Below, piece by piece: positions 18,433 to 31,034 of a stretch of DNA of 64,000 bases. Each line of letters starts with the position of its first letter. The stretch's first letter is position 1. Both the position numbers and the translations under genes were made by a program. The DNA is taken from NCBI RefSeq assembly GCF_000219805.1, contig NC_015759.1, positions 1,358,479 through 1,422,478 on the forward strand. The letters run 5' to 3'. This stretch comes from Weissella koreensis KACC 15510. GTDB lineage: Bacteria > Bacillota > Bacilli > Lactobacillales > Lactobacillaceae. The notes beneath the pieces were generated by a model. The model saw nothing but the letters and a program-made list of their open reading frames with translations. It was not told the DNA's origin and made no database searches.

Positions 18433-18579
18433 AATTCATTTAAATAAATATAATATCATACTCCAAATTTGTTGTTATTAAATATTTGGTAAAAACAATA
18501 TTTAAATGTTTACAAAATGTTAAATAACAATTAAAATTTAACTAATGTATATTTAATGATTGGAGATCGGTACGTAAAG

Positions 18580-19284
18580 ATGAATGATTTTTATTTTATG
18601 GGTCAAAAAATAGTAAATTTATTAAATCCTGAAGGCCCTGAATACGAATTATTATTACGTAGTCATAGTATTCCTGGTTTCCCTGCAGAACAATATGTTG
18701 CTTATATGACTTCTGAAGAACTACATCTAGAATATTTATCTTTTTTGGAGCATGAATTAAATCATATTTTAGCATTAAATCCAGGTAATAAATTTGGTCT
18801 TAATTTGGATCAGCAAGAGTTAGAATATGATGCAACGCTAGATTTTTTGAAAAAAATAAATCCTGAGTTTAGGGGAAATTTAACAATAGAGATTACAGAA
18901 TTGCCACCTTTGAAAAGGCATAAAAGTTACCCCAAATCTATTAATGTTGAGGTGATTAAGCAAATTAATCTGTTGGGATATCGAGTAGCGTTAGATGATA
19001 TTACACAAGGGAATAATTCAATAGGAAACTTGTTACTTGTAATGCCATATATTCATCAGATTAAATGGTCATATGTGCATGTAATAAATCGAATTCCAAA
19101 TGAAAGTATTGAAGGAATCATTCAATTTTTAAATAAATTAAGTCATCAATTTGATTTAGAACTAGTAATTGAAGGAATTGAAGCATCGGAAATATCAGAT
19201 TGGTTAGTAAAAAATAATATTACAAATCAACAAGGTTATTTATTTGCTAAACCGGCAGGTGTCGAGCCAATCAAATTAATTTAA
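18580..19284 (+). CDS. Stand-alone EAL-domain protein (c-di-GMP phosphodiesterase-like), copy 1
   Basis: The protein (234 residues) is a single EAL domain without sensor or membrane parts. Motifs seen: ELLLR (23-27, the EAL signature), Asn75 (LNLDQQE), IEITE (103-107), LDD (138-140) followed by ITQGNNS, EGIE (198-201) and QGYLFAKP (218-225). The conserved Asp of the (I/L)K(I/L)D motif is Ser here (IKWS, 161-164). Most metal-binding residues are present, so hydrolysis of c-di-GMP is possible but needs testing. I use ATG 18580 because the sister copy starts with the same MxDFYFMGQKIVNL. It lies upstream of a GGDEF gene. Confidence 0.88.
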   Translation: MNDFYFMGQKIVNLLNPEGPEYELLLRSHSIPGFPAEQYVAYMTSEELHLEYLSFLEHELNHILALNPGNKFGLNLDQQELEYDATLDFLKKINPEFRGNLTIEITELPPLKRHKSYPKSINVEVIKQINLLGYRVALDDITQGNNSIGNLLLVMPYIHQIKWSYVHVINRIPNESIEGIIQFLNKLSHQFDLELVIEGIEASEISDWLVKNNITNQQGYLFAKPAGVEPIKLI

Positions 19285-19326
19285 CTATCATTAGAAAACA
19301 ATTACTATTTGGAGGAATTACAAAAC

Positions 19327-20058
19327 ATGTACGATTTTTATTTTATGGGTCAAAAAATTGTTAATTTAGAGCACGCTGATTATGATGAATATGAGCTATT
19401 GTTACGTAGTCATAGTGTTCCTGGATTTCCAGGTGCTTTGTATGCAGAAGCAACAAACACCGAAGAGCATCATCGCAATTATTTAGATTTTTTAGCCCAA
19501 GCCTTACCACAAATTTTGGAAATGAACCCAAATAGTCTTTTTTCATTTAATTTGGATCAACAGGAGCTTGAATACGCAGGGACATATCAATTATTGAATT
19601 TAATCAAGCCAGAATTACGTGATCGCTTAATTATTGAAATTACTGAAAATCCGGCTACTGATCGACAGTATGAATATACTACTGCAATTAATGTCGAAGC
19701 TTTTAAAGCAATTCATGAATTAGGATACAAAATTGCTCTTGATGATATGGAACAAGGGAATAATTCAATTGGTAATTTCTTGTTAGTTAAAGATTATTTG
19801 ACACGAATCAAATGGTCTTTGGTTCATGTTCGTAATATTTTGGATGATGATCAAGTTACATTAATGATTCAGTTATTAAATACTATTACTATCGATAACC
19901 AATTAGACCTTGTAATTGAGGGAATTGAAAAAGAAGAATTGTCTTCGTGGTTGAAGGATCATGATATTATCATTCAACAAGGATATCTTTTTGCAAAACC
20001 AAGTGATATTTTGCCTATTCCATTGTTGATTGATGATCGTAAAAAAATTATTGATTAA
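19327..20058 (+). CDS. Stand-alone EAL-domain protein, copy 2
   Basis: A tandem paralogue (243 residues) of the preceding gene, close to half identical by eye over its whole length (MYDFYFMGQKIVNL, ELLLRSHSVPGFPG, LNLDQQELEY, IEITE, ALDDMEQGNNSIGN, EGIE, QQGYLFAKPS). It shares the same Asp-to-Ser change (IKWS). GGAGG at 19311-19315 sets the start at ATG 19327. The gap from copy 1 is 42 bases, so they are probably cotranscribed, and a terminator follows. Two near-full-length copies suggest separate roles, for example enzyme and sensor, rather than simple redundancy. Confidence 0.88.
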   Translation: MYDFYFMGQKIVNLEHADYDEYELLLRSHSVPGFPGALYAEATNTEEHHRNYLDFLAQALPQILEMNPNSLFSFNLDQQELEYAGTYQLLNLIKPELRDRLIIEITENPATDRQYEYTTAINVEAFKAIHELGYKIALDDMEQGNNSIGNFLLVKDYLTRIKWSLVHVRNILDDDQVTLMIQLLNTITIDNQLDLVIEGIEKEELSSWLKDHDIIIQQGYLFAKPSDILPIPLLIDDRKKIID

Positions 20059-20063
20059 TTTTC

Positions 20064-20097
20064 AAAGCATCGTCACAATTTTTGCGACGATGCTTTT
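20064..20097 (+). terminator. Terminator between EAL copy 2 and the GGDEF gene
   Basis: GCATCGTC (20067-20074) pairs with GACGATGC (20086-20093), extended by AAA/TTTT pairs, and is followed by T residues. It partly uncouples the cyclase gene from the two EAL genes. Confidence 0.85.
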
Positions 20098-20123
20098 ACT
20101 ATTTAATTAAAGAAGGAATGTTT

Positions 20124-21308
20124 ATGCTAGATATTTTAAGCCAATTATGGAGTTCAATTTGGCAATCGTTTTCTTATAATACATTACATGATTTCATAAT
20201 TGTTTTAGGTTTGCTAGTGGTTGATTTTATTTTAGTTTTTTCAAACCGTGGTCGCTTTAATTCTAGAGCGGAGCGAAGAAATATGAACCTCTTGGGTGGA
20301 TTGATACCTATCATAACTGTTATAAGTTTTCAGGCATATCTGATAGCCATAAATGGAGGTGTGTTTTCTTTACCTCAAACTGATTTACAATTAGTAATTT
20401 TATATTATTTTTTGATTATGCTAGATAGTCGTGCTCAAATTTTATATGGGATTATTTTGTCCTTAGGATTATTTATTTATTTTTCAACCCAAACGACATT
20501 GAATTATTTTCAATTAGGTCTGGGAATGATTGGTATAGTCTTAATAGCATTATCTACTTATTATGTTAATATGAATTCTAAAAAAATATTGGGTAATATG
20601 TTAGTTTATTTATTTTGGCTCATAATTTGGGGAAGTTCATGGTGGATGGTGTTAATTTTAGGCCTTCGCGGTCAAACTATTTATAATTACGTGGCATTAA
20701 TTGTTAAATTTATACTTTTGATGTCTGTTGTTCACTATTTAAATTATTTTGTACGGACTTCGTTAGACCGATATCTTAAAATTGAAAATGCTTCAAAAAA
20801 GGATTATTTAACTGGTGTGTTAAATCGTGAAAGTTTTAATCAGGCCAGTGAAAGAGCCTTTCAGATGTTTCAGCTAAACCATAAAACTTTTAGCTTGATT
20901 ATGTTTGATATTGATAAATTTAAATCGTTTAATGATACTTATGGTCATACAATTGGAGATCAAGTGCTGCAATTAGTGACCCGACAAACGCAATATGTTT
21001 TATCAAAGTCAGATTTAGACGGTCAGGCCTTTCGTCTAGGTGGAGAAGAATTTGGGATACTAGTATATTCATCAAAAGTTGATAAAGCAAAAGAATTGGC
21101 AAAGCAAGTTGCTATAAGAGTTAAGAGTAATCCTTTAGTAAATGAAGGAGTAGCCTTAAAACTGACCATTTCTATGGGAGTGACAGAGATAAATAAAACT
21201 GATAAAGAATTTAATGATGTTTATCAACGAGCGGATAACGCCTTATATCATTCCAAAAATAATGGTAGAAGCTCAATTACAATTGATCAGGAAATAATAA
21301 AAATATAA
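20124..21308 (+). CDS. Membrane-bound GGDEF diguanylate cyclase
   Basis: An N-terminal region of about six transmembrane segments (residues about 20-205) is followed by a GGDEF domain from about residue 225 in this 394-residue protein. Key motifs are DYLTGVLNRESF, MFDIDKFKSFNDTYGHTIGDQVL and the active-site GGEEF at 306-310, so synthesis of c-di-GMP from two GTP is expected. The usual product-inhibition RxxD just before the active site is absent (SDLDGQAFRLGGEEF). AAGAAGGA precedes two possible ATGs (20118, 20124); the second has better spacing. Confidence 0.93.
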   Translation: MLDILSQLWSSIWQSFSYNTLHDFIIVLGLLVVDFILVFSNRGRFNSRAERRNMNLLGGLIPIITVISFQAYLIAINGGVFSLPQTDLQLVILYYFLIMLDSRAQILYGIILSLGLFIYFSTQTTLNYFQLGLGMIGIVLIALSTYYVNMNSKKILGNMLVYLFWLIIWGSSWWMVLILGLRGQTIYNYVALIVKFILLMSVVHYLNYFVRTSLDRYLKIENASKKDYLTGVLNRESFNQASERAFQMFQLNHKTFSLIMFDIDKFKSFNDTYGHTIGDQVLQLVTRQTQYVLSKSDLDGQAFRLGGEEFGILVYSSKVDKAKELAKQVAIRVKSNPLVNEGVALKLTISMGVTEINKTDKEFNDVYQRADNALYHSKNNGRSSITIDQEIIKI

Positions 21309-21313
21309 TAGAT

Positions 21314-21355
21314 AAAAAAGGAGCGTATCTCTAATGAGAATACGCCCTTTTTATT
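21314..21355. terminator. Bidirectional terminator (GGDEF gene / epimerase gene)
   Basis: AAAAAAGG-GCGTATCTC pairs with GAGAATACGCCCTTTTT around TAAT. The A-run on one side and the T-run on the other make it work in both directions, serving the converging cyclase (plus) and epimerase (minus) genes. Confidence 0.85.
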
Positions 21356-21362
21356 TTGCATG

Positions 21363-22481
21363 TTATTTATTATTAAATTCTTTTTGAATTGCATTAATGA
21401 TATTAGTGGCAGCGTTACCATCGCCATAAGGATTTTTGGCAGATGCCATTGCCTGATACACCTTGGGCTGCTCTAATAATTCAACCATCGCAGCTAAAAC
21501 ATTACTTTCTTTGGTACCAACTAATTTAAGCGTACCAGCTTGAACACCTTCGGGACGTTCAGTAGTATCTCTTAAGACCAATACTGGTTTACCTAGTGAG
21601 GGTGCTTCTTCCTGAATACCACCAGAGTCAGTCATAATAAAGTAACTTTGAGCAGCTAAATTATGAAAGTCTATAACATCTAATGGTTGAATTAAATGTA
21701 TTCGATCATGATTACCTAGTACTTCTTGTGCATATTTTTGAACTGTAGGACTAAGGTGAACGGGATAGACAACCTCAATATTTGGGAAAGTATCAACAAC
21801 TTTACGAATCGCCTTAAAAACATGTAACATCGGAGCACCTTGATTTTCACGACGATGCATGGTTACTAAAATCATTTTATGATTAGAATAATTTAATTGA
21901 AAGATTTGATTTTTATAGTTACTGTTCACGGTTTGTTTAAGCGCGTCAATGGCGGTATTGCCAGTAATATATATTTTATTAGGATTATGGTTTTCTTTAA
22001 TTAAATTATCATAACTTTGTTGAGTGGGTGTAAAATAGACATCACTTAGTACATCCGTCATTTGACGATTCATTTCTTCAGGAAATGGACTATATTTATT
22101 CCATGTTCTTAAGCCAGCCTCAACATGACCTAATTTTATTTGGTGATAGAAGGCTGCGATGCTAGCCGCAAATGTTGTAGTTGTATCGCCATGGACTAAG
22201 ATTATATCTGGATGTTCTTGCTCAATGATTACATCTAACTGGGATAAAATCCGACTTGTAATTTGACTGAGTGTTTGGTTAGGCTTCATTATATTTAAAT
22301 CAAAATCAGGCTTTATGTGGAAAATGTCTAAAAGTTGATCTAGCATTTGACGATGTTGAGAGGTGATAACGGTAATAGTTTCGAATACCTTAGGACGTTT
22401 CTTTAGTTCTAAAATAATTGGAGCCATTTTAATGGCTTCAGGGCGTGTACCAAAAATAGACATTACTTTGATTTTGTTCAT
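21363..22481 (-). CDS. mnaA: UDP-N-acetylglucosamine 2-epimerase (non-hydrolysing)
   Basis: MnaA/WecB (372 residues, usual length) interconverts UDP-GlcNAc and UDP-ManNAc, supplying ManNAc for wall polymers and exopolysaccharides. Motifs: SIFGTRPEAIKMAP at the N-terminus, VHGDTTTTFAASIAAFY, GHVEAGLRTWNKYSPFPEEMNRQ, TMHRRENQG and TDSGGIQEEAPSLGKPVLVLR. The start ATG (22481) is preceded on the minus strand by GGAAGGA. It diverges from the synthase operon, with a short shared upstream region. Confidence 0.96.
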   Translation of the reverse strand: MNKIKVMSIFGTRPEAIKMAPIILELKKRPKVFETITVITSQHRQMLDQLLDIFHIKPDFDLNIMKPNQTLSQITSRILSQLDVIIEQEHPDIILVHGDTTTTFAASIAAFYHQIKLGHVEAGLRTWNKYSPFPEEMNRQMTDVLSDVYFTPTQQSYDNLIKENHNPNKIYITGNTAIDALKQTVNSNYKNQIFQLNYSNHKMILVTMHRRENQGAPMLHVFKAIRKVVDTFPNIEVVYPVHLSPTVQKYAQEVLGNHDRIHLIQPLDVIDFHNLAAQSYFIMTDSGGIQEEAPSLGKPVLVLRDTTERPEGVQAGTLKLVGTKESNVLAAMVELLEQPKVYQAMASAKNPYGDGNAATNIINAIQKEFNNK

Positions 22482-22504
22482 GTTATAGTTCCTTCCGTTT
22501 TGCT

Positions 22505-22533
22505 TTGACTAAACATATATAACGCTTTAAAAT
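22505..22533 (+). promoter_or_regulatory. Promoter of the exopolysaccharide operon
   Basis: TTGACT (22505-22510) and TAAAAT (22528-22533) lie 17 bases apart, leaving a leader of roughly 75 bases before the first gene. An imperfect inverted repeat (TATATAACGC ... GCGTATATATA) spans the -10 region and could be an operator. Confidence 0.55.
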
Positions 22534-22615
22534 GAATGCGTATATATAAATGATTAAGATTTAAATTTTTAATTATATATTAATTATAATACAATAAGAA
22601 TATAGAGTGATGATA

Positions 22616-23743
22616 ATGAAAAAACATAAAAATATCGTAATGTTAATTATAATTTTTGCTGTAATTATCATTTTTTTGGGAGTTCGTAGGGAGATTTACC
22701 AGAGCCATTTAATAAAAATAGATAATGCTAATTTAGTGAAAAATAAAAAATTCAACAATTATCCAGAACAAACACAAAACTTAGTTGGTTTTATTAAAAG
22801 TAATTTATTAATCAAAGAGGGAATTTACACTAATCCCTTCGCTAAAGTTAATGCTCAGAATACTAATTTAGCTACTGGTAAGGAAATGTTAACAGAATCA
22901 TCAGGAATGTGGTTGCAATACTTAATTGAAATGGATTCAAAAGACTCATTCCAAGATTTTTATAAAAATACCAAAGCAACTTTTTGGAAAAATGATCAGT
23001 TCAATTATCGTTATGATCCAAATAATAAAAAATTATCCAATGTAAATGCAACATTAGATGATTTAAGAATTGTTCGAGCATTAATTATATATGATCAAAG
23101 ATATAAAACCGATTTTTATGAGAAAGATATCTCTGAAATTTATAACCACTTAAAAGGAACGGCGATTAAAGATGGGACAGTGCTGGACTATTATGACCCT
23201 GTATTGAAAAAAGGGTCAGCGAATAGTAGCTTGGCCTATTATTATTTGGATACTTTAAGGGGCTTAGAACAAAGTAAGCCTGATCAAAGAAAATATGAAC
23301 AGCAAATTAAAATTGTAGAAGAAGGTTATTTATCAGATGATTTCCCATTGTATGCCAGTAATTTTAATGTAAAAAGTAGGATTTATAGTTCAAATGATTT
23401 AAATACTTCGGAAGCTTTAGAAGTATTATTACATTTGGCACAAGTTGGAAAATTAAAGAATACAAGTCAAAAATGGTTAATTGAAAAGGTAGAGAACAAG
23501 ACCTTGTTTAATAGTTATTCAACGCAAGGCTCTCCGATTAATCACGATACATCAGTAGCTAATTATGCTTTAGCTGCTCAAATTTTTAAATTAACAAATG
23601 ATAAAAAGCATTATCAAGATGCCATGACGATCATTTGGCAGAGTCAGATTAAAAATGGTAAATACAAAGGCGGATTAGGGGATGTAAAAAGTAGGCAATT
23701 TTATTCATATAATAATTTAAATGCGTTGATTGCTGCTGAATAA
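22616..23743 (+). CDS. GH8-like glycoside hydrolase, membrane-anchored
   Basis: The protein (375 residues) has an N-terminal signal-anchor helix (about residues 6-23). The catalytic region resembles glycoside hydrolase family 8: MLTESSGMWLQYL matches the SEGxGYGM region carrying the acid Glu, and ATLDDLRIVRALI matches the ATDxDL region carrying the base Asp. BcsZ-type GH8 enzymes are common in cellulose-like synthase operons and Listeria PssZ degrades its c-di-GMP-induced polysaccharide. GTG 22607 and ATG 22610 are alternative starts, and the ribosome site is weak. It is the first gene of a six-gene operon. Confidence 0.75.
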   Translation: MKKHKNIVMLIIIFAVIIIFLGVRREIYQSHLIKIDNANLVKNKKFNNYPEQTQNLVGFIKSNLLIKEGIYTNPFAKVNAQNTNLATGKEMLTESSGMWLQYLIEMDSKDSFQDFYKNTKATFWKNDQFNYRYDPNNKKLSNVNATLDDLRIVRALIIYDQRYKTDFYEKDISEIYNHLKGTAIKDGTVLDYYDPVLKKGSANSSLAYYYLDTLRGLEQSKPDQRKYEQQIKIVEEGYLSDDFPLYASNFNVKSRIYSSNDLNTSEALEVLLHLAQVGKLKNTSQKWLIEKVENKTLFNSYSTQGSPINHDTSVANYALAAQIFKLTNDKKHYQDAMTIIWQSQIKNGKYKGGLGDVKSRQFYSYNNLNALIAAE

Positions 23744-23770
23744 AAATATAATTACAAAGGCGTGAGTCTT

Positions 23771-25252
23771 ATGAAAATAAAAGTAGAGACAAAATTTTTA
23801 AGATTTATAACACCATCCATGTTGGCAGTAATTTTAACGATATTAATTGTAGGGCCATTGTTATTTAGTAACAATCCTCATGGATATGCTGATAATGGTG
23901 ATTTCTGGCGAGTGATTTATCAAAACGGACTCTATCCCTCACGTAAAGGGGTTGGTGATACATATCAATATGTTTTACAACATTATAATATCATGCAGTA
24001 TTTTAATGAGCATCCAACTGTGATACATTCCTCTCAGAATGGTCTAGTAAAAATTGCGATTTGGATAAATGAATTTTTTTATAGTAAAACGGTTTTTGAT
24101 ATTAGATTTATGGGAGTTGTTTACTTTGTCCCATTTTGTGGAACTATTTATTTTTTGACAGAAGCTTTGACGTTAGGTAAAAGGAATTTTACGAATTACT
24201 TCATTGCTTTGCTAGTTGTATTTGTTTTTGCAGATTCATCTTTCACATTGTATATGAATTCTTTATTTGCTGAAGCCGGTGGGTATATTTTCATGCTTCT
24301 TGCTGCTGCCATGTTACTGTTATGGAGTAGGCGACGTTATAAAAAAAATTGGTTATTAATTTTAACATATTTTATATGTGTGATTTTATTTGTTTTTAAC
24401 AAACAACAAAATGCTCCGTTAGCGTTAAGCTTTTTAGTTATATCGATGAGTTTGCTTTTAGCTCAAGGTTTGAAAAAATATCGAATTTATATTTTGTCAG
24501 GCATGTTAGCTATCTTGGTAACAGGAATTATAACGTTCCTTTTGATTCCAAAAGAGTTTAATGACATTAATATGTACCAAAGCTTTGCAAATGGTGTTGT
24601 TTTATACAACGACGCTGATCCAGGTAAACAAATCGAAAAAGAAGGTATTAACGGCCAATTTAGTCTGACACGTGGTGGAGCTTATAATCCTAAGAATTAT
24701 TCTGATATAATGCCCCCAGAAAAATATACCGAGAAACATTTAACTAATAAAATTAACACATTTTGGATTGTAAAATATTATGTTAAGCATTTTACGCAGT
24801 TTAAACGTCTATTAGATTTAGCAGCTGAAGATTTAATGGCTACGCAACCACAGGCAGTGGGTGATTATACTCGTCAGTCTGGAGCTAAGCCGTATAAACA
24901 GGTTAAATATTTCACGGGATTTAGAATTTTAATGAGAGCATTATTTCCACAAAAATTTTCCTTCTTAATTTTATTAACATTTACTTTGGCTTTCGTAAAT
25001 TCTGTAGCGATGTATGATGATTTCAAAAATAAGAAGGTTAATAATCCTGGTACAACAAGATGGTTTATGGTCATGGGACTGATGAGCATGGCCATAGATA
25101 TTCCTATCATTTCCATAATAGGGGATGGTGATGCAGATTTAGCAAAACACCTTTTCTATGCTGATGTTGCGATTGACTTAATTTTGGTAATAACGATTTC
25201 AGATACACTTAATCATCAACTCTGGCATTTTAATACACAAAAAGAAGAATAA
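23771..25252 (+). CDS. Polytopic membrane protein, WsfD/PssA-like glycan transfer protein
   Basis: About ten transmembrane segments in this 493-residue protein, with one larger extracytoplasmic loop in the middle (about residues 255-375). Conspicuous motifs are HGYADNGDFWRVIY after the first helix and YMNSLFAEAGGYIFM later. They remind me of the WsfD-type glycan hexosyltransferases and of the membrane protein encoded first in the Listeria pss operon. A role in decorating or exporting the polymer is inference. AAAGGCG precedes ATG 23771. The next gene starts 4 bases after the stop, implying translational coupling. Confidence 0.65.
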   Translation: MKIKVETKFLRFITPSMLAVILTILIVGPLLFSNNPHGYADNGDFWRVIYQNGLYPSRKGVGDTYQYVLQHYNIMQYFNEHPTVIHSSQNGLVKIAIWINEFFYSKTVFDIRFMGVVYFVPFCGTIYFLTEALTLGKRNFTNYFIALLVVFVFADSSFTLYMNSLFAEAGGYIFMLLAAAMLLLWSRRRYKKNWLLILTYFICVILFVFNKQQNAPLALSFLVISMSLLLAQGLKKYRIYILSGMLAILVTGIITFLLIPKEFNDINMYQSFANGVVLYNDADPGKQIEKEGINGQFSLTRGGAYNPKNYSDIMPPEKYTEKHLTNKINTFWIVKYYVKHFTQFKRLLDLAAEDLMATQPQAVGDYTRQSGAKPYKQVKYFTGFRILMRALFPQKFSFLILLTFTLAFVNSVAMYDDFKNKKVNNPGTTRWFMVMGLMSMAIDIPIISIIGDGDADLAKHLFYADVAIDLILVITISDTLNHQLWHFNTQKEE

Positions 25253-25255
25253 GAT

Positions 25256-26842
25256 ATGTTCAAAAAAATATGGTTAGTTTTAATCACTTTAATTGTGGAA
25301 ATGTTTTTATTCAATGCTGCGGGACAGGCTGACACTAAACAACCTGTAGTTTTATTTATGTATGATTCACTTAATATTGATAATAATAAAGCGGAAAATG
25401 TATATTCACTTAATCGCCTATTAGTTAGTACAGGCTGTAATGTTCAAATGATGCAGATAGATGAATATCAAGCTGGCGAACTAGATGATGATAAATATGA
25501 TGGCGTTGTAACATTAATTAATTGGCCTGAGCATGAACAAAGTAATAAGGCGTTAGATGAAGATCGATTAAAATTCAATGGGATTCAGATTCATATTGGA
25601 GATAATATGAATTTAAACGAAATGAATGATATTAATGGGGAAACAATTAGCTACCATCAACGAGAGTTTATTCTTAAGGATCCAGATCGAAAAGTTGAAC
25701 AACATTTACCGCAATTAGATAAATTGACAGTTTTTGATCAATTGTCATCAGATACCACGACGATCGGTTTTTTAAAAATACAAGGTCAGGATCACGAATA
25801 CCCATATGGAATTATTAGTCGTAATCAAGGATACGTTCCTTATTATGCCAGTGATGATGATAGCACGTTTTTATTAGCAACGTTAATAAAAATAATGTTT
25901 AATTTACCTAATAGAGTAAACCCGCCTTTATTTACGATTGGTGGAGTTACTCCGTATACTGATTTAGCTTTATTGAAGAAGATAACCAGATATTTAAAAC
26001 AAACAAAGCGAACCTTTGCGATTTCAGCAACCATTCCCGACGGTAATTTTGATTTATATGCTTATCAAAAATTTGTAAATGAATTAAATCGTGTAACAAA
26101 TAGCGGGGGACTCCTATTTATTAAAAATCCATATGTCGGTGATTCAGGTCCTAGTGATAGTAATATTGATAAATTACAAAGGCAAACACAGGATGGAGTT
26201 AATCATTTAATTGATAGAAATGTATATCCAATTGGACTTGGACTTGACGAGTACTGGTTACGTGATAATACCTATAAAAAGGGTTATGGGGACTCTTCTA
26301 ATACACAAATTTTATTTCCAAATCCTAAACAATTTGGCTTTGCTCAACAAGATAATTATAGTAAAACGGTTAAAAATTCGATCTATGCGGTCGAGATGAA
26401 TCAGATTAATTCCGATTTAAGAGGGACAACATTGAATAATGTTGATTTTCATGCAGATATCCCTTTTGCGATTACATTTGAGATGCCAGATAACACTCAA
26501 AAATTAAAACAATTAGAAAATGAAATTAAAAATATCAAATTTAAATTATTTACCAACGATGAAAATGATATTGAAACACAATTCTCAACTAGTGATCATG
26601 ACATTGCCTACTCTAATCATCAATATTTATTAGATAATAAAATAGCCAATAGGGATAATGTTAAGGTTACGACTAAAAGAGCGCCTAAATATCAACCAGT
26701 TGAAAACTGGGGAAATAAGTTTTTTAATAGTCAAAATCGGATAATGTGGTTCTTTTTTGGGATTACTTTTGTAATTTTAGGTATCTTTTTAGTAAAGGGA
26801 AGAAAAATATATTTGAAAATGTTCAAGCGCCATAATGATTAA
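25256..26842 (+). CDS. DUF2334-like polysaccharide deacetylase family protein, membrane-tethered
   Basis: A signal peptide (about residues 1-24, cleavage near GQADT) and a C-terminal transmembrane helix (about 497-518) bracket a large extracytoplasmic domain of this 528-residue protein. The middle section (FTIGGVTPYTDLALLKKITRYL, TFAISATIPD) resembles the DUF2334 branch of carbohydrate esterase 4-like folds, as in Listeria PssB. The metal-binding Asp-His-His set of classical CE4 enzymes is not obvious, so activity is uncertain. It may deacetylate or otherwise process the nascent polymer. Confidence 0.65.
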   Translation: MFKKIWLVLITLIVEMFLFNAAGQADTKQPVVLFMYDSLNIDNNKAENVYSLNRLLVSTGCNVQMMQIDEYQAGELDDDKYDGVVTLINWPEHEQSNKALDEDRLKFNGIQIHIGDNMNLNEMNDINGETISYHQREFILKDPDRKVEQHLPQLDKLTVFDQLSSDTTTIGFLKIQGQDHEYPYGIISRNQGYVPYYASDDDSTFLLATLIKIMFNLPNRVNPPLFTIGGVTPYTDLALLKKITRYLKQTKRTFAISATIPDGNFDLYAYQKFVNELNRVTNSGGLLFIKNPYVGDSGPSDSNIDKLQRQTQDGVNHLIDRNVYPIGLGLDEYWLRDNTYKKGYGDSSNTQILFPNPKQFGFAQQDNYSKTVKNSIYAVEMNQINSDLRGTTLNNVDFHADIPFAITFEMPDNTQKLKQLENEIKNIKFKLFTNDENDIETQFSTSDHDIAYSNHQYLLDNKIANRDNVKVTTKRAPKYQPVENWGNKFFNSQNRIMWFFFGITFVILGIFLVKGRKIYLKMFKRHND

Positions 26843-26856
26843 TAGCATAGAAAGAG

Positions 26857-28119
26857 GTGACTAAAATTTCTATTTTAGATATTGCTTTATTTATTGCGAT
26901 TATTTCCATTTGGGGAATTATGATTGTGAATGTTATTTTGACCATTGCTGGGTATATTTATTATTTAAATTGGACTAATACACCAGCTCCACAACTAAAG
27001 AATGAAACTCCTTTTGTTTCTATTATGGTACCTGCGCATAATGAGGGAATTGTAATTGTAAAAACAGTTCAATCACTATTAGCATTTGATTATCCTGCTG
27101 ATAAATATGAAATCATTGTAATTAATGATAATTCAAATGACAATTCTGCTGAATTATTGAAAACTTTGCAACAAGTTAATCCGGATCGAAATCTGAAAGT
27201 GATTAATACCGATGCAGTAAATGGTGGGAAAGGGAAGTCCAATGCATTAAATATTGGATTAAAAAAAGCAAAAGGTTCCGTTATTTCAATTTATGATGCA
27301 GATAATACACCAGAACATGGAGCATTGCGCTATTTAGTGGCCGAATTGATGGGACATGATGAATATGGAGCAGTTATTGGTAAATTTAGGACCAGAAATA
27401 AAAATGCTTCTATTCTAACCAGATTTATTAACATTGAAACGTTATCATTTCAATGGATGGCTCAGGCTGGAAGACAACAACTATTTCATCTAGGAACAAT
27501 CCCAGGCACGAATTATGTTATTCGGCGCGAGCTTATTGAAAAAGTTGGGGGATGGGATGAAAAAGCGCTAGCTGAAGATACGGAAATTAGTTTTCAAATC
27601 TACGGATTAGGGTATTTAATTAAGTTCCAACCCTTGGCGGTGACTTGGGAGCAAGAACCTCAAACGATGGATGTTTGGTTCCACCAACGAACGCGTTGGG
27701 TTAAAGGGAATATTTATGTTGTGTTGAAGAACTTTAAGAAACTTTTTACTAAAGCAGGTAGACACATTCGGTTTGATTTAGTATATTTTGCGTCAATATA
27801 CTTTCTATTACTGACATCATTAATTTTGTCAGATATTATTTTTGTATTATCAGTTGCAGGAATAACACATTCAACTCTAACAGGGTTTAGTAATGAATTA
27901 TGGTTTGTTGCAATCTTGAGTTTCATTGTGACAACATTTATTACTATTACCACTGAAAAAGGCGAGATGAAAATAAGTAACTTGTTTATGATTGTTGCAA
28001 TGTATTTAATATATAGTCAGATGTGGTTAGCAGTGGCGCTATACGGGATGGTGGGATATGTTAGAGAACAAATTTTTCATAAAGAAGCCAAGTGGTATAA
28101 GACTAAACGGTATAAGTAA
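26857..28119 (+). CDS. Processive glycosyltransferase family 2, BcsA/PgaC-like polysaccharide synthase
   Basis: The synthase (420 residues with the GTG start) has an N-terminal helix pair, a cytosolic GT2 domain and three or four C-terminal helices. GT2 motifs: SIMVPAHNEG, IVINDNS, the DxD in SIYDADN, the TED-like LAEDTEIS, and QRTRW (QxxRW) that holds the acceptor. There is no PilZ domain, so c-di-GMP control must come from a partner. The start is unusual: a stop lies at 26848-26850, AAAGAGGTG looks like the ribosome site, and the well-spaced codon is ATT at 26866 rather than ATG. GTG 26857 is given here by convention. Confidence 0.9.
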   Translation: MTKISILDIALFIAIISIWGIMIVNVILTIAGYIYYLNWTNTPAPQLKNETPFVSIMVPAHNEGIVIVKTVQSLLAFDYPADKYEIIVINDNSNDNSAELLKTLQQVNPDRNLKVINTDAVNGGKGKSNALNIGLKKAKGSVISIYDADNTPEHGALRYLVAELMGHDEYGAVIGKFRTRNKNASILTRFINIETLSFQWMAQAGRQQLFHLGTIPGTNYVIRRELIEKVGGWDEKALAEDTEISFQIYGLGYLIKFQPLAVTWEQEPQTMDVWFHQRTRWVKGNIYVVLKNFKKLFTKAGRHIRFDLVYFASIYFLLLTSLILSDIIFVLSVAGITHSTLTGFSNELWFVAILSFIVTTFITITTEKGEMKISNLFMIVAMYLIYSQMWLAVALYGMVGYVREQIFHKEAKWYKTKRYK

Positions 28120-30187
28120 AAAGTTTCAAGGGATATTATTATTAATTGCTTTAATATTGGGGATGATCTATGGATCCACAACAATTGTTTGGGCAGATAA
28201 TAATAATGAAAACAAAAATTTTAGTCAAAATTTTAATAATTCTAATATGACAATATCTGGTGAAACAGTCCAAGAGGATGTGTTTTTTAATAAAATGGAT
28301 TATTGGGATGTTAATAAAGGAACAATTAACTTTAATTTTAAGGTATCACAACTCGATGATTATAACGTTTCAGACTTAACATTATCTATGAATGGGATTA
28401 AATTCTATTCTTTTCGACCAGATGCAACGGATGATATCCAAAATAAAACGATTGATGTCCCCGTTGATTTATTGCAAGGATCGAATCATTTACAAATTTC
28501 AGGACAAACATTTAATCAAAGTGATAATAATACAACGCTTTTGGCAACACCAGCTAATTGGTTGACGGTTTATCAAGATTCAAATATTAATTTGGATTAT
28601 TCATTATCTGAAGCAGATGATAAAATTAATCAATTTTATGATCATTTTACAGGTTTTGATACAGTGATAAATCAAAAATCGGCTATCCGGATTAACACTA
28701 ATCTATCTGATCCAGAGTTAGAAGCAAACCTGTATGCTTTATCAGGAATTGATGGTGTAGTATCAGATAAAGGTAAAATATCGTTAATTAATAGTGATGA
28801 CCAGGCGATAAATAATTATGATTATCAAATCATTATTTCTAAACAAGCACATCTCCCAGAACAATTCAAAGAAGTTGGTAAAGATTTGGGCCAACAAGAA
28901 GCGTGCATTAAAGCTATTAATGATCAAGGAAAGCATTACCTAGTAGTAACTGCGAAAACGAATAAACAATTGATTAAGGCCGCACGATTTGTTTCTAATT
29001 CAGAGTTAATGAAAGAGACGCAACAAGCGAACAAAAAGATTTCAACAAAAACTGAAACTTACTTGGCTTCACCAACAAATAAATTTGTTCAAGAAATCTC
29101 ATCAAATGACACGACTTTATCGGGTTCCGGTCATCAAGAGGCAACTTATTCACTTGAAATGCCAAAAGCTCGTAATAATGCGAATGGTTCGACAATTCTC
29201 CTCCATACAAAATATGCTAAAAATATTGATTTTAGTAAATCCCTAGTGACGGTTGAACTTGATGGAAAAAAGATTGGAAGTCATCAATTAACTGCCAAAA
29301 AAGCAGATAATGACACTTTTGAAATTAAAATACCAAATGGCCAAGCGCTTGGAAAAGGGTTTAATATAAAAGTTATTTTCGATATGGTAAATAACCAATC
29401 TTCATTGAATCAAACACCATGGGCCATTATTGAAAAACAATCCAAGGTTACGATCAAAACAGAGCCGATGAATAATTTGTTATTTTCTAATTATCCTAGT
29501 ACTTTTATTAAGAATAAGACATATGAGCATATCGCGTTGATTCGACCTGAAAAATTGAATAGTATTTATCTTGATACACTTTCTAGTTTATTTAATGGGA
29601 TAGGTAGTTATGTTGAACAGAATACCGGGCAGATAAAAGTTTATCATAAAACACCCAACAAAACACAACTAGCAAATAGCAGTATTATTACCTTTGGGAC
29701 ACCTAAGGATAATCAATTTATTAGAAATTCCAATAATGATTTATATTTTAAATTTGATCATCATTTTAAAAATATCGTGTCTAATGAAAAAATGAGTTTA
29801 GAATCCAACTATAGTCGTAAAATTGGAACGGCACAGTTGTTACGCTCACCCTATAATCAGAAACGGTCAATCTTAATTTTAACGGCTATCCATGAACAAG
29901 ATGTAGCGATGGCTGCGAACACAGTTAGTTCACAGAGTGGATTATCCCAAGTTGATGGGGATGCGATTGTTATTGATCGAGATAACCAACAAAAGACATA
30001 TCGTTTTAAAAAAGATATTGCTGCTGACGCCAAATTAGACCTTGACTTAAGATTAAAACGGAATCAAAAATTAATAGTATATCTTGTTGTCTTTACATTG
30101 ATCCTGATTTCATTGATTGGTGTAATTATCGTCATTTTATATAAAAATGATAATCTGAGATTTGGAAGGAATAATCATGAAAGATAA
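28058..30187 (+). CDS. BcsB-like membrane-anchored synthase subunit
   Basis: An N-terminal signal or helix lies at about residues 25-45 of this 709-residue protein, ending near VWADNN. A long extracytoplasmic beta-rich region and one C-terminal transmembrane helix (LIVYLVVFTLILISLIGVII) follow. This layout and phrases such as DLTLSMNGIKFYSF, PVDLLQGSNHLQISG and HQEATYSLEMPKARNN fit the BcsB/cellulose synthase subunit family, which guides the polymer out of the GT2 channel. It overlaps the synthase gene by 62 bases if ATG 28058 is used, tying their translation together. Confidence 0.78.
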   Translation: MLENKFFIKKPSGIRLNGISKKFQGILLLIALILGMIYGSTTIVWADNNNENKNFSQNFNNSNMTISGETVQEDVFFNKMDYWDVNKGTINFNFKVSQLDDYNVSDLTLSMNGIKFYSFRPDATDDIQNKTIDVPVDLLQGSNHLQISGQTFNQSDNNTTLLATPANWLTVYQDSNINLDYSLSEADDKINQFYDHFTGFDTVINQKSAIRINTNLSDPELEANLYALSGIDGVVSDKGKISLINSDDQAINNYDYQIIISKQAHLPEQFKEVGKDLGQQEACIKAINDQGKHYLVVTAKTNKQLIKAARFVSNSELMKETQQANKKISTKTETYLASPTNKFVQEISSNDTTLSGSGHQEATYSLEMPKARNNANGSTILLHTKYAKNIDFSKSLVTVELDGKKIGSHQLTAKKADNDTFEIKIPNGQALGKGFNIKVIFDMVNNQSSLNQTPWAIIEKQSKVTIKTEPMNNLLFSNYPSTFIKNKTYEHIALIRPEKLNSIYLDTLSSLFNGIGSYVEQNTGQIKVYHKTPNKTQLANSSIITFGTPKDNQFIRNSNNDLYFKFDHHFKNIVSNEKMSLESNYSRKIGTAQLLRSPYNQKRSILILTAIHEQDVAMAANTVSSQSGLSQVDGDAIVIDRDNQQKTYRFKKDIAADAKLDLDLRLKRNQKLIVYLVVFTLILISLIGVIIVILYKNDNLRFGRNNHER

Positions 30188-31034
30188 TAAAAGCACCTCA
30201 ATTTTAAGTGATGTTTATTTATTAATTTTTTTGGCATTGATTTTAACAACAGCGATTATGACAGAGTTATCAGGTCAATTAATGGCAAATGCGATTTATT
30301 TATTTGTCACCATGTTATTGATCTTAATAATGTATTTTTTTGGTTTGCTTATTGGGATTGCTTTTAATTTAGTCTTTATGTTTGGGCAGGTTCTCTACAT
30401 TATTTTTTTAAATTCAATTAATCATGGGGAAATAGAACTATTACAAATCTATTGGCTGATTGTGCCATTAGTATTGTCCATTACTTTTTATTCAATGACT
30501 AATAGAGTGCGACAATTACAAAGTGATAATCTAGAGTTACAAAATAGAATCATTGAACAGGGTGCTTTTAATACCAAAACCAATCTAAGAACAACGGCTG
30601 CATTTTTAGAGGATTCAAATATATTTACAGAAACCAGTCAACGGTTTAACATTCCGACCAGTGTTGTAGCCATTCAAGTTCGATATTTGGAACAATTAAG
30701 AGAAATTATGAGTGAACGACGGATTGATGAATTAATTGATTTAACTACGACAGCCTTAAAACACAGTACTCGTGGTAATGATATTTCCTATTTATTAAAT
30801 GATGATGAAAGTAATTTAACGTGGGCGACACTTTTATATACTGATCTTGATGGAGCAAAAATAGTTGAGGAGCGAATTAAAGATAATTTTGATCAATTAT
30901 TGATTAATGCTAAATCTTTAAAGGATATTGATATTAGTTTAAAAACCGGCGCAGTGGAATACGACAATCAAGAAATGAAAAGTGCTAATGCGTATATGGA
31001 TGCAGCGATTAAAGAATTAGAATATGACGTTTGA
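30177..31034 (+). CDS. Membrane protein with degenerate GGDEF domain, probable c-di-GMP receptor
   Basis: Four transmembrane segments in the first 105 residues of this 285-residue protein lead to a short coiled coil (QLQSDNLELQNRIIEQ) and a GGDEF-fold domain. The active-site GGDEF is replaced by NDDES (208-212), so it should not make c-di-GMP. RGND at 199-202 sits exactly nine residues upstream, the place of the RxxD inhibitory site that binds c-di-GMP. Listeria PssE and Pseudomonas PelD use the same logic to activate synthases. GGAAGGA precedes ATG 30177, which overlaps the BcsB-like gene by 11 bases. Confidence 0.82.
   Translation: MKDNKSTSILSDVYLLIFLALILTTAIMTELSGQLMANAIYLFVTMLLILIMYFFGLLIGIAFNLVFMFGQVLYIIFLNSINHGEIELLQIYWLIVPLVLSITFYSMTNRVRQLQSDNLELQNRIIEQGAFNTKTNLRTTAAFLEDSNIFTETSQRFNIPTSVVAIQVRYLEQLREIMSERRIDELIDLTTTALKHSTRGNDISYLLNDDESNLTWATLLYTDLDGAKIVEERIKDNFDQLLINAKSLKDIDISLKTGAVEYDNQEMKSANAYMDAAIKELEYDV

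Follow-up and report, generated by a model that had tools for sequence, protein, structure and literature searches.

Bacterial cellulose synthase (BcsAB), in which a glycosyltransferase family 2 (GT2) subunit works with a BcsB partner, is activated by cyclic di-GMP (c-di-GMP). The same pairing of a GT2 protein with a BcsB-like partner occurs in an operon that we analyzed in Weissella koreensis KACC 15510, on a 64,000-nucleotide stretch of the genome (here called the window; G+C content 32.5%); unlike in BcsAB, the GT2 protein lacks a C-terminal PilZ domain and the genome has no PilZ match. We read the locus as a Pss/Yda-type exopolysaccharide (EPS) operon whose c-di-GMP supply lies next to it and whose switch is the degenerate GGDEF protein PssE, and give this reading a probability of roughly 0.82. 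The operon is a real, well-preserved and probably c-di-GMP-switched member of the Pss type, a known kind of system; the window is less usual in that a cyclase, phosphodiesterases and an epimerase all lie adjacent.

The pssA-E genes of Listeria monocytogenes with the hydrolase PssZ (lmo0527-0531) share with the window the order pssA-B-C-D-E, a PssE whose RxxD motif lies five residues before a ruined GGDEF site, and a glycoside hydrolase family 126 (GH126) enzyme of the same family. In the window, however, the GH126 gene heads the operon (a 19.5-kb Listeria-type stretch, L231, gave no tblastn hit to the hydrolase), the operon adjoins genes for a cyclase, two EAL proteins and an epimerase, and PssE is only 29% identical. 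Passages of PMC7479077 and PMC5039582 describe the Listeria polymer as composed of N-acetylmannosamine (ManNAc) and galactose and as cleaved by PssZ. Listeria PssE is described in part of PMC4125290 as binding c-di-GMP and as required for EPS, its RxxD preceding DKDDA by five residues.

The Bacillus subtilis ydaJ-N operon likewise places EPS under a degenerate GGDEF receptor, YdaK, with a required I-site; in the relevant passages of PMC5422440 both I-site substitutions, R202A and D205A, abolish EPS. A Bacillaceae-type genome that appears to represent the yda type (G1011) has, in this order, GH126-type hydrolase, degenerate GGDEF, PssB-, PssC- and PssD-like genes; unlike the window, it gave no PssA hit, and its receptor gene stands second, not last. 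In Lactobacillus acidophilus, of the same family, the gts operon also sets a receptor beside a BcsA/PgaC-like GT2, although passages of PMC6123363 give the operon as gtsA-gtsB-pdeB, with a degenerate EAL protein, PdeB, as that receptor, whereas the last gene in the window is pssE. One sentence in He et al. (2018) compares the gts operon with Pss.

Gene content and proposed mechanism

The genome is 1.44 Mb in two contigs and 99.9% complete. Ten open frames run from 18,556 to 31,034, at or near the positions given by a first-pass annotation; all of its genes are present as open frames, the first EAL gene beginning at 18,556 and not at 18,580. On the forward strand, EAL1, EAL2 and a GGDEF gene come first, followed by an epimerase gene on the reverse strand and then by a forward-strand set of six, in which neighbors overlap or are separated by at most 18 bases. 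Window coordinates are as follows.

18556 to 19284, forward: EAL1, a stand-alone EAL protein with nine of nine checked catalytic residues; tandem paralogue of EAL2 (54% identical)
19309 to 20058, forward: EAL2, a stand-alone EAL protein with nine of nine checked catalytic residues; best solved relative 3kzp (102 bits)
20082 to 21308, forward: diguanylate cyclase with a hydrophobic N-terminal half (by eye) and a GGDEF domain; by the translation, GGEEF is intact and RxxD is missing from its usual upstream position
21363 to 22481, reverse: non-hydrolysing UDP-N-acetylglucosamine (UDP-GlcNAc) 2-epimerase of the WecB/MnaA type, which would supply UDP-ManNAc
22607 to 23743, forward: GH126 hydrolase (PssZ/YdaJ-type) with a hydrophobic helix at its N terminus; E97, the putative acid, and D151 do not vary among 18 aligned sequences
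23762 to 25252, forward: PssA, a polytopic membrane protein belonging to the WsfD family of hexose transferases
25256 to 26842, forward: PssB, DUF2334-related, with an N-terminal signal and a C-terminal membrane helix by eye
26857 to 28119, forward: PssC, GT2 synthase subunit without a PilZ domain
28058 to 30187, forward: PssD, BcsB-like subunit (PF03170, 97 bits), overlapping the pssC frame by 62 bases
30177 to 31034, forward: PssE, candidate c-di-GMP receptor with four N-terminal helices (membrane, by eye) and a GGDEF-fold domain with a ruined active site; ATG at 30177, a longer frame starting at TTG 30162
30771 to 30782, forward: PssE I-site motif RGND, residues 199 to 202
30798 to 30812, forward: PssE NDDES, residues 208 to 212, in place of the GG[DE]EF active-site motif

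Gene identities, motifs, order and fold can be read from the window itself. Pfam and NCBIfam profile searches of its proteins returned, as the first-pass annotation had largely anticipated, EAL twice (66 and 71 bits for EAL1 and EAL2), GGDEF for the adjacent cyclase (129 bits), the WecB-type UDP-GlcNAc 2-epimerase model TIGR00236 (514 bits), WsfD for PssA (443 bits), GT2 for PssC (96 bits), BcsB for PssD and a sub-threshold GGDEF for PssE. Cyclase, phosphodiesterases and synthase do lie side by side, as had been claimed.

Relatives suggest how PssE may bind c-di-GMP and switch the synthase, what PssA, PssB and PssD may do, and what polymer chemistry and co-transcription may look like here. PssC would polymerise a UDP-amino sugar across the membrane, with PssD and PssB assisting outside, PssA adding a hexose side group and the GH126 enzyme trimming or releasing the polymer. 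The neighboring cyclase, or two further cyclases that the genome encodes, would raise c-di-GMP, which would bind the RxxD I-site of membrane-bound PssE and turn the synthase on; EAL1 and EAL2 would lower c-di-GMP again. Judging by the epimerase, the polymer may contain ManNAc, like that of Listeria.

PssE as the candidate switch

PssE scores 19.9 bits against the Pfam GGDEF model, under the 23.8 cut-off. Its predicted structure (predicted local distance difference test, pLDDT, 92) has four N-terminal helices, the last extending as a linker, and a GGDEF domain that matches solved GGDEF domains, including 3ign with bound c-di-GMP (template modeling, TM, score 0.83 by target length). The description of the last gene as a degenerate GGDEF protein was therefore borne out by NDDES at the active site and by the predicted fold, despite the score. 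RGND sits five residues before NDDES, and both RGND and R233 are intact. PssE is the likely receptor for c-di-GMP, as previously proposed, judging by the intact RxxD in a genome in which neither PssC nor any other protein gave a PilZ match.

Gene order in relatives

A PssC scan of genome contigs gave 303 relatives, and the best 80 loci, from many Lactobacillaceae genera, Enterococcus, Paenibacillus and one Bacillus record, were kept for neighborhood counts (tblastn relatives of window genes, E <= 1e-5, in up to 10 kb on each side). Relatives of the hydrolase, PssA, PssB, PssC, PssD and PssE were found at 70, 80, 80, 80, 79 and 76 loci, respectively; all six genes were present in 67 and stood in the order of the window in 64. 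Some missing genes may be false negatives, because some loci end at contig ends. As the loci were found by the GT2 gene alone, the six-gene order is shared far beyond chance. The first-pass annotation had stated that the last five genes follow Listeria pssA-E, and synteny agrees: the Listeria-type genome G554 (L231) has all five homologues in the same order (E-values 7e-27 to 0), with a PssC 63% identical to that of the window. Its group, g47, appears to be Listeria from an RTSD...DKDDA-like PssE motif. A genome from another family of the order (G461) carries all six, the GH126 gene and pssA-E in this order, with a GGDEF gene downstream.

The companions are found less often: GGDEF relatives occurred at 13 of the 80 loci, EAL1 and EAL2 relatives at 18 each and epimerase relatives at 5. 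A genus-mate (G388) has the epimerase, hydrolase and pssA-E ordered as in the window (64 to 89% identity). Given its distant EAL-EAL-GGDEF unit (see below) and the neighborhood counts, we regard the six-gene operon as a fixed unit and the c-di-GMP enzymes as a loosely linked companion.

Distribution and I-site retention

In a draw of 397 Lactobacillaceae genomes, GGDEF proteins were counted at E <= 1e-10 and PssE at E <= 1e-15. The claim that c-di-GMP circuits are sparse in this family did not hold, as 186 genomes had a GGDEF protein and 82 had PssE. The c-di-GMP-switched Pss type of operon had come to light in a handful of studies on Listeria and Bacillus; these 82 genomes make it a common trait among lactic acid bacteria, in which clumping and surface sticking matter. 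Compared by hand, a GGDEF protein was present in 76 of the 82 genomes with PssE versus 110 of the 315 without. An order-level draw found PssE in 45 of 395 genomes, 30 of them new, bringing family and order together to 112 genomes. A class-level draw matched 15 of 329, own genome included, and added 14 genomes outside the order; all 14 keep RxxD and have GGDEF enzymes, six of them being weak matches (61 to 77 bits).

Thirteen of the 112 PssE genomes have no GGDEF protein apart from PssE: five of genus g22 and G066 (87% complete), all Lactobacillaceae, and seven of family f3, which we take for Enterococcaceae since its PssE proteins match Enterococcus loci. An EAL search (E <= 0.01) gave no match in any of the 13, and ten other genomes searched all matched. 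RxxD was intact in 88 of 96 scorable genomes with a GGDEF enzyme versus 0 of 12 without. Partial PssE proteins were dropped before these counts, namely those of G375 and G438 (in pieces), G292 (125 residues) and G702, together with a partial second copy in G403; the first three genomes have GGDEF enzymes and RxxD is visible in a piece, while G702 has no GGDEF enzyme and its site is not covered. Listeria-type PssE has RTSD in 19 of 19.

The most differential PssE columns were D202 and R199, retained in 95% and 93% of sequences with GGDEF versus 0 of 13 sequences without; G129 and P270 (A in the window) were likewise 0 of 13 in sequences from GGDEF-less genomes. R233, which by spacing only could be the third I-site arginine, falls from 93% in the presence of GGDEF enzymes to 2 of 13 in their absence. 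Among the PssE proteins that lack RxxD, all 13 retain Y205 and the C-terminal YDV and 12 of 13 retain W216, which marks them as conserved proteins and not as debris. A GGDEF search covered 50 of the 80 loci (49 genomes): six genomes had no GGDEF over the cut-off (two Ligilactobacillus aviarius, Candidatus L. faecavium, Enterococcus termitis, E. moraviensis and E. phoeniculicola), and RxxD was absent from PssE in all six. The 80-locus set and the genome draws overlap and are not two independent sets.

Fisher's test of RxxD loss against GGDEF absence gave p = 4.5e-11, a value that ignores kinship. On a PssE tree (110 rows, with a warning of long branches) there were three changes of GGDEF state and four of I-site state, and an independent-pairs test, having 2 to 4 pairs, cannot reach significance. 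The L. aviarius group joins Enterococcus in this tree and in a PssC tree (Shimodaira-Hasegawa-like approximate likelihood ratio test 100 and 97, quick trees), and the two were therefore counted as one event. The PssC tree had 74 rows, the window and those 73 of the 80 loci whose frames have 400 to 450 residues, a filter that removed E. moraviensis (L070); it places the window PssC among Lactobacillaceae. Kinship leaves about three independent events for the coupling of I-site and GGDEF enzymes, which is suggestive, not proven.

Eight genomes run against a strict rule, having GGDEF enzymes and no RxxD: seven of genus g20, probably Secundilactobacillus by shared PssE motifs, and G629. An adjacent degenerate EAL protein taking over from the I-site in Secundilactobacillus was considered and rejected, the EAL neighbors of L051, L054, L058, L059 and L069 keeping all nine residues; no replacement receptor was found beside the named Secundilactobacillus loci.

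We put at about even odds that, where c-di-GMP enzymes are absent (in Enterococcaceae-type genomes, the L. aviarius group and one 1.2-Mb lineage), the Pss synthase has become free of c-di-GMP control. PssE would there be kept as an obligatory structural subunit with its I-site destroyed, the synthase running without the messenger, and the window would represent the switched state. On this reading, the version in the L. aviarius group is unswitched and seems to derive from an Enterococcus-type donor; L. salivarius, L. pabuli and L. salitolerans, which belong to the same genus and have GGDEF enzymes, carry the switched version instead. Such natural losses lend themselves to testing how activation of a synthase by a degenerate GGDEF subunit works, through a comparison of PssE with and without the site, and messenger present versus absent. 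The coupling is suggestive, and it is the new addition here and the point most worth following up; in titles and abstract openings of the open-licence literature, neither Pss in Weissella nor loss of the PssE I-site came to our notice, and one paper there brings PssE, c-di-GMP and Enterococcus together.

Signal supply, precursor supply and alternative readings

EAL1 and EAL2 retain all nine of the residues (E, N, E, D, D, K, E, E and Q) that we take to contact metal and substrate, and are predicted to be active phosphodiesterases; they are the two EAL proteins of the genome with all nine. Three GGEEF proteins are encoded: the window cyclase; a membrane protein at C2:1352856 (L214:7167-8375), about 5 kb before the window and 32% identical to that cyclase; and a GGDEF-EAL protein at C2:349301, whose EAL half is changed at two of the nine places (N and D there). 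A second UDP-GlcNAc 2-epimerase lies elsewhere, and a gts-type locus (C2, about 383 to 386 kb; L212:7125-10217, reverse strand) encodes a membrane protein, a GT2 split into two overlapping frames, and a degenerate EAL protein altered at three of nine residues. The first-pass annotation had spoken of a complete module. Cyclase, phosphodiesterases and synthase are indeed adjacent, but with further GGEEF proteins, a second epimerase and a gts-type locus outside the window, signal and precursor are not exclusive to it.

Several observations weigh against the reading of the window as a switched operon with its own supply. The EAL-EAL-GGDEF unit of G388 lies about 17 kb from pssE, so adjacency of the c-di-GMP enzymes is not strict. 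With a second epimerase in the genome, a dedicated role of the adjacent one is less certain. Promoter- and terminator-like sites in the region were not above shuffled sequence. An Rfam search of the region gave zero matches, and both a c-di-GMP riboswitch of a known type and any further Rfam element were rejected there.

The best-surviving alternative is that the EAL-EAL-GGDEF group mainly serves another output, such as the gts-type locus or the general pool, so that the 12.5-kb module is a matter of neighborhood and only the Pss-type synthase stands. The low counts of GGDEF, EAL and epimerase relatives near pss loci favor it, as do G388 and another genus-mate (G135) with two EAL genes and a GGDEF gene on a different contig from its PssE. 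We nevertheless consider it doubtful: PssE is the only candidate receptor found beside an intact synthase in the genome, the gts-type GT2 frame is split, and the EAL half of the third GGDEF protein is altered.

Somewhat less probable is a polymer resembling poly-N-acetylglucosamine (PNAG) or cellulose and not based on ManNAc. PssC scores best against the PgaC/IcaA model (182 bits, versus 80 for the cellulose synthase model), cellulose synthases come first in a Protein Data Bank search, and the second epimerase exists. The description of PssC as a BcsA-like GT2 without PilZ thus stands for GT2 and the missing PilZ, while the scores are nearer PgaC/IcaA than cellulose synthase. The 182 bits are, however, far under the NCBIfam cut-off of 422 for PNAG synthases, an epimerase gene directly neighbors that of the hydrolase at 5 of the 80 loci and in G388, and PssC closely resembles the Listeria-type protein, whose polymer is given as ManNAc:Gal in the passages cited above. 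That PssE here no longer senses c-di-GMP, leaving the synthase constitutive as proposed for relatives without c-di-GMP enzymes, is very improbable given the intact RGND and R233 and the three GGEEF proteins, even though eight genomes have lost RxxD while keeping GGDEF enzymes.

Hydrolase, PssB and minor observations

The hydrolase had been called GH8-like; it belongs instead to GH126. The best solved relatives by a profile of 18 sequences were CPF_2247 (3ren, E 4e-70) and Listeria PssZ (6r2m, E 7e-24), and the same two entries were the first fold matches of the predicted structure (pLDDT 89). In CPF_2247 the residues at the positions of E97 and D151 are Glu84 and Asp136, respectively. Membership of GH8 was rejected, as Pfam GH8 hit one of the 18 aligned members (E 0.016) and not the window protein. 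Passages of PMC7479077 note that PssZ was originally classed under GH8 and list Lactobacillus members of GH126. PssB, labeled DUF2334-like, gave no match itself; 8 of 17 aligned members match DUF2334.

The two relatives of EAL2 that carried an organism name are from Weissella kandleri (50 and 51% identity). The orphan PssE of G135 (L169:12278-18277) is 40% identical to that of the window with RGND intact, has no pssA-D hits in 19.5 kb, and adjoins a 658-residue BcsA-like GT2 with a C terminus that looks PilZ-like by eye. Two PssE-like proteins, both without RxxD, occur in G756 of family f3 (L198 and L199), one within a 971-residue open frame and the other without further pss genes in 10 kb. 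The Lentilactobacillus kisonensis pssE (L052:13288-13752; L137, G375) is broken by stop codons in a genome with a GGDEF enzyme. The split GT2 of the gts-type locus may be a pseudogene, an assembly error or a frameshift. By eye, the GGEEF gene at C2:1352856 lies near genes resembling dnaG and rpoD, and at L212:3199-5823 (reverse strand) genes for a GT2 and a secreted protein flank a small exosortase-like gene, an arrangement that recalls XrtG clusters.

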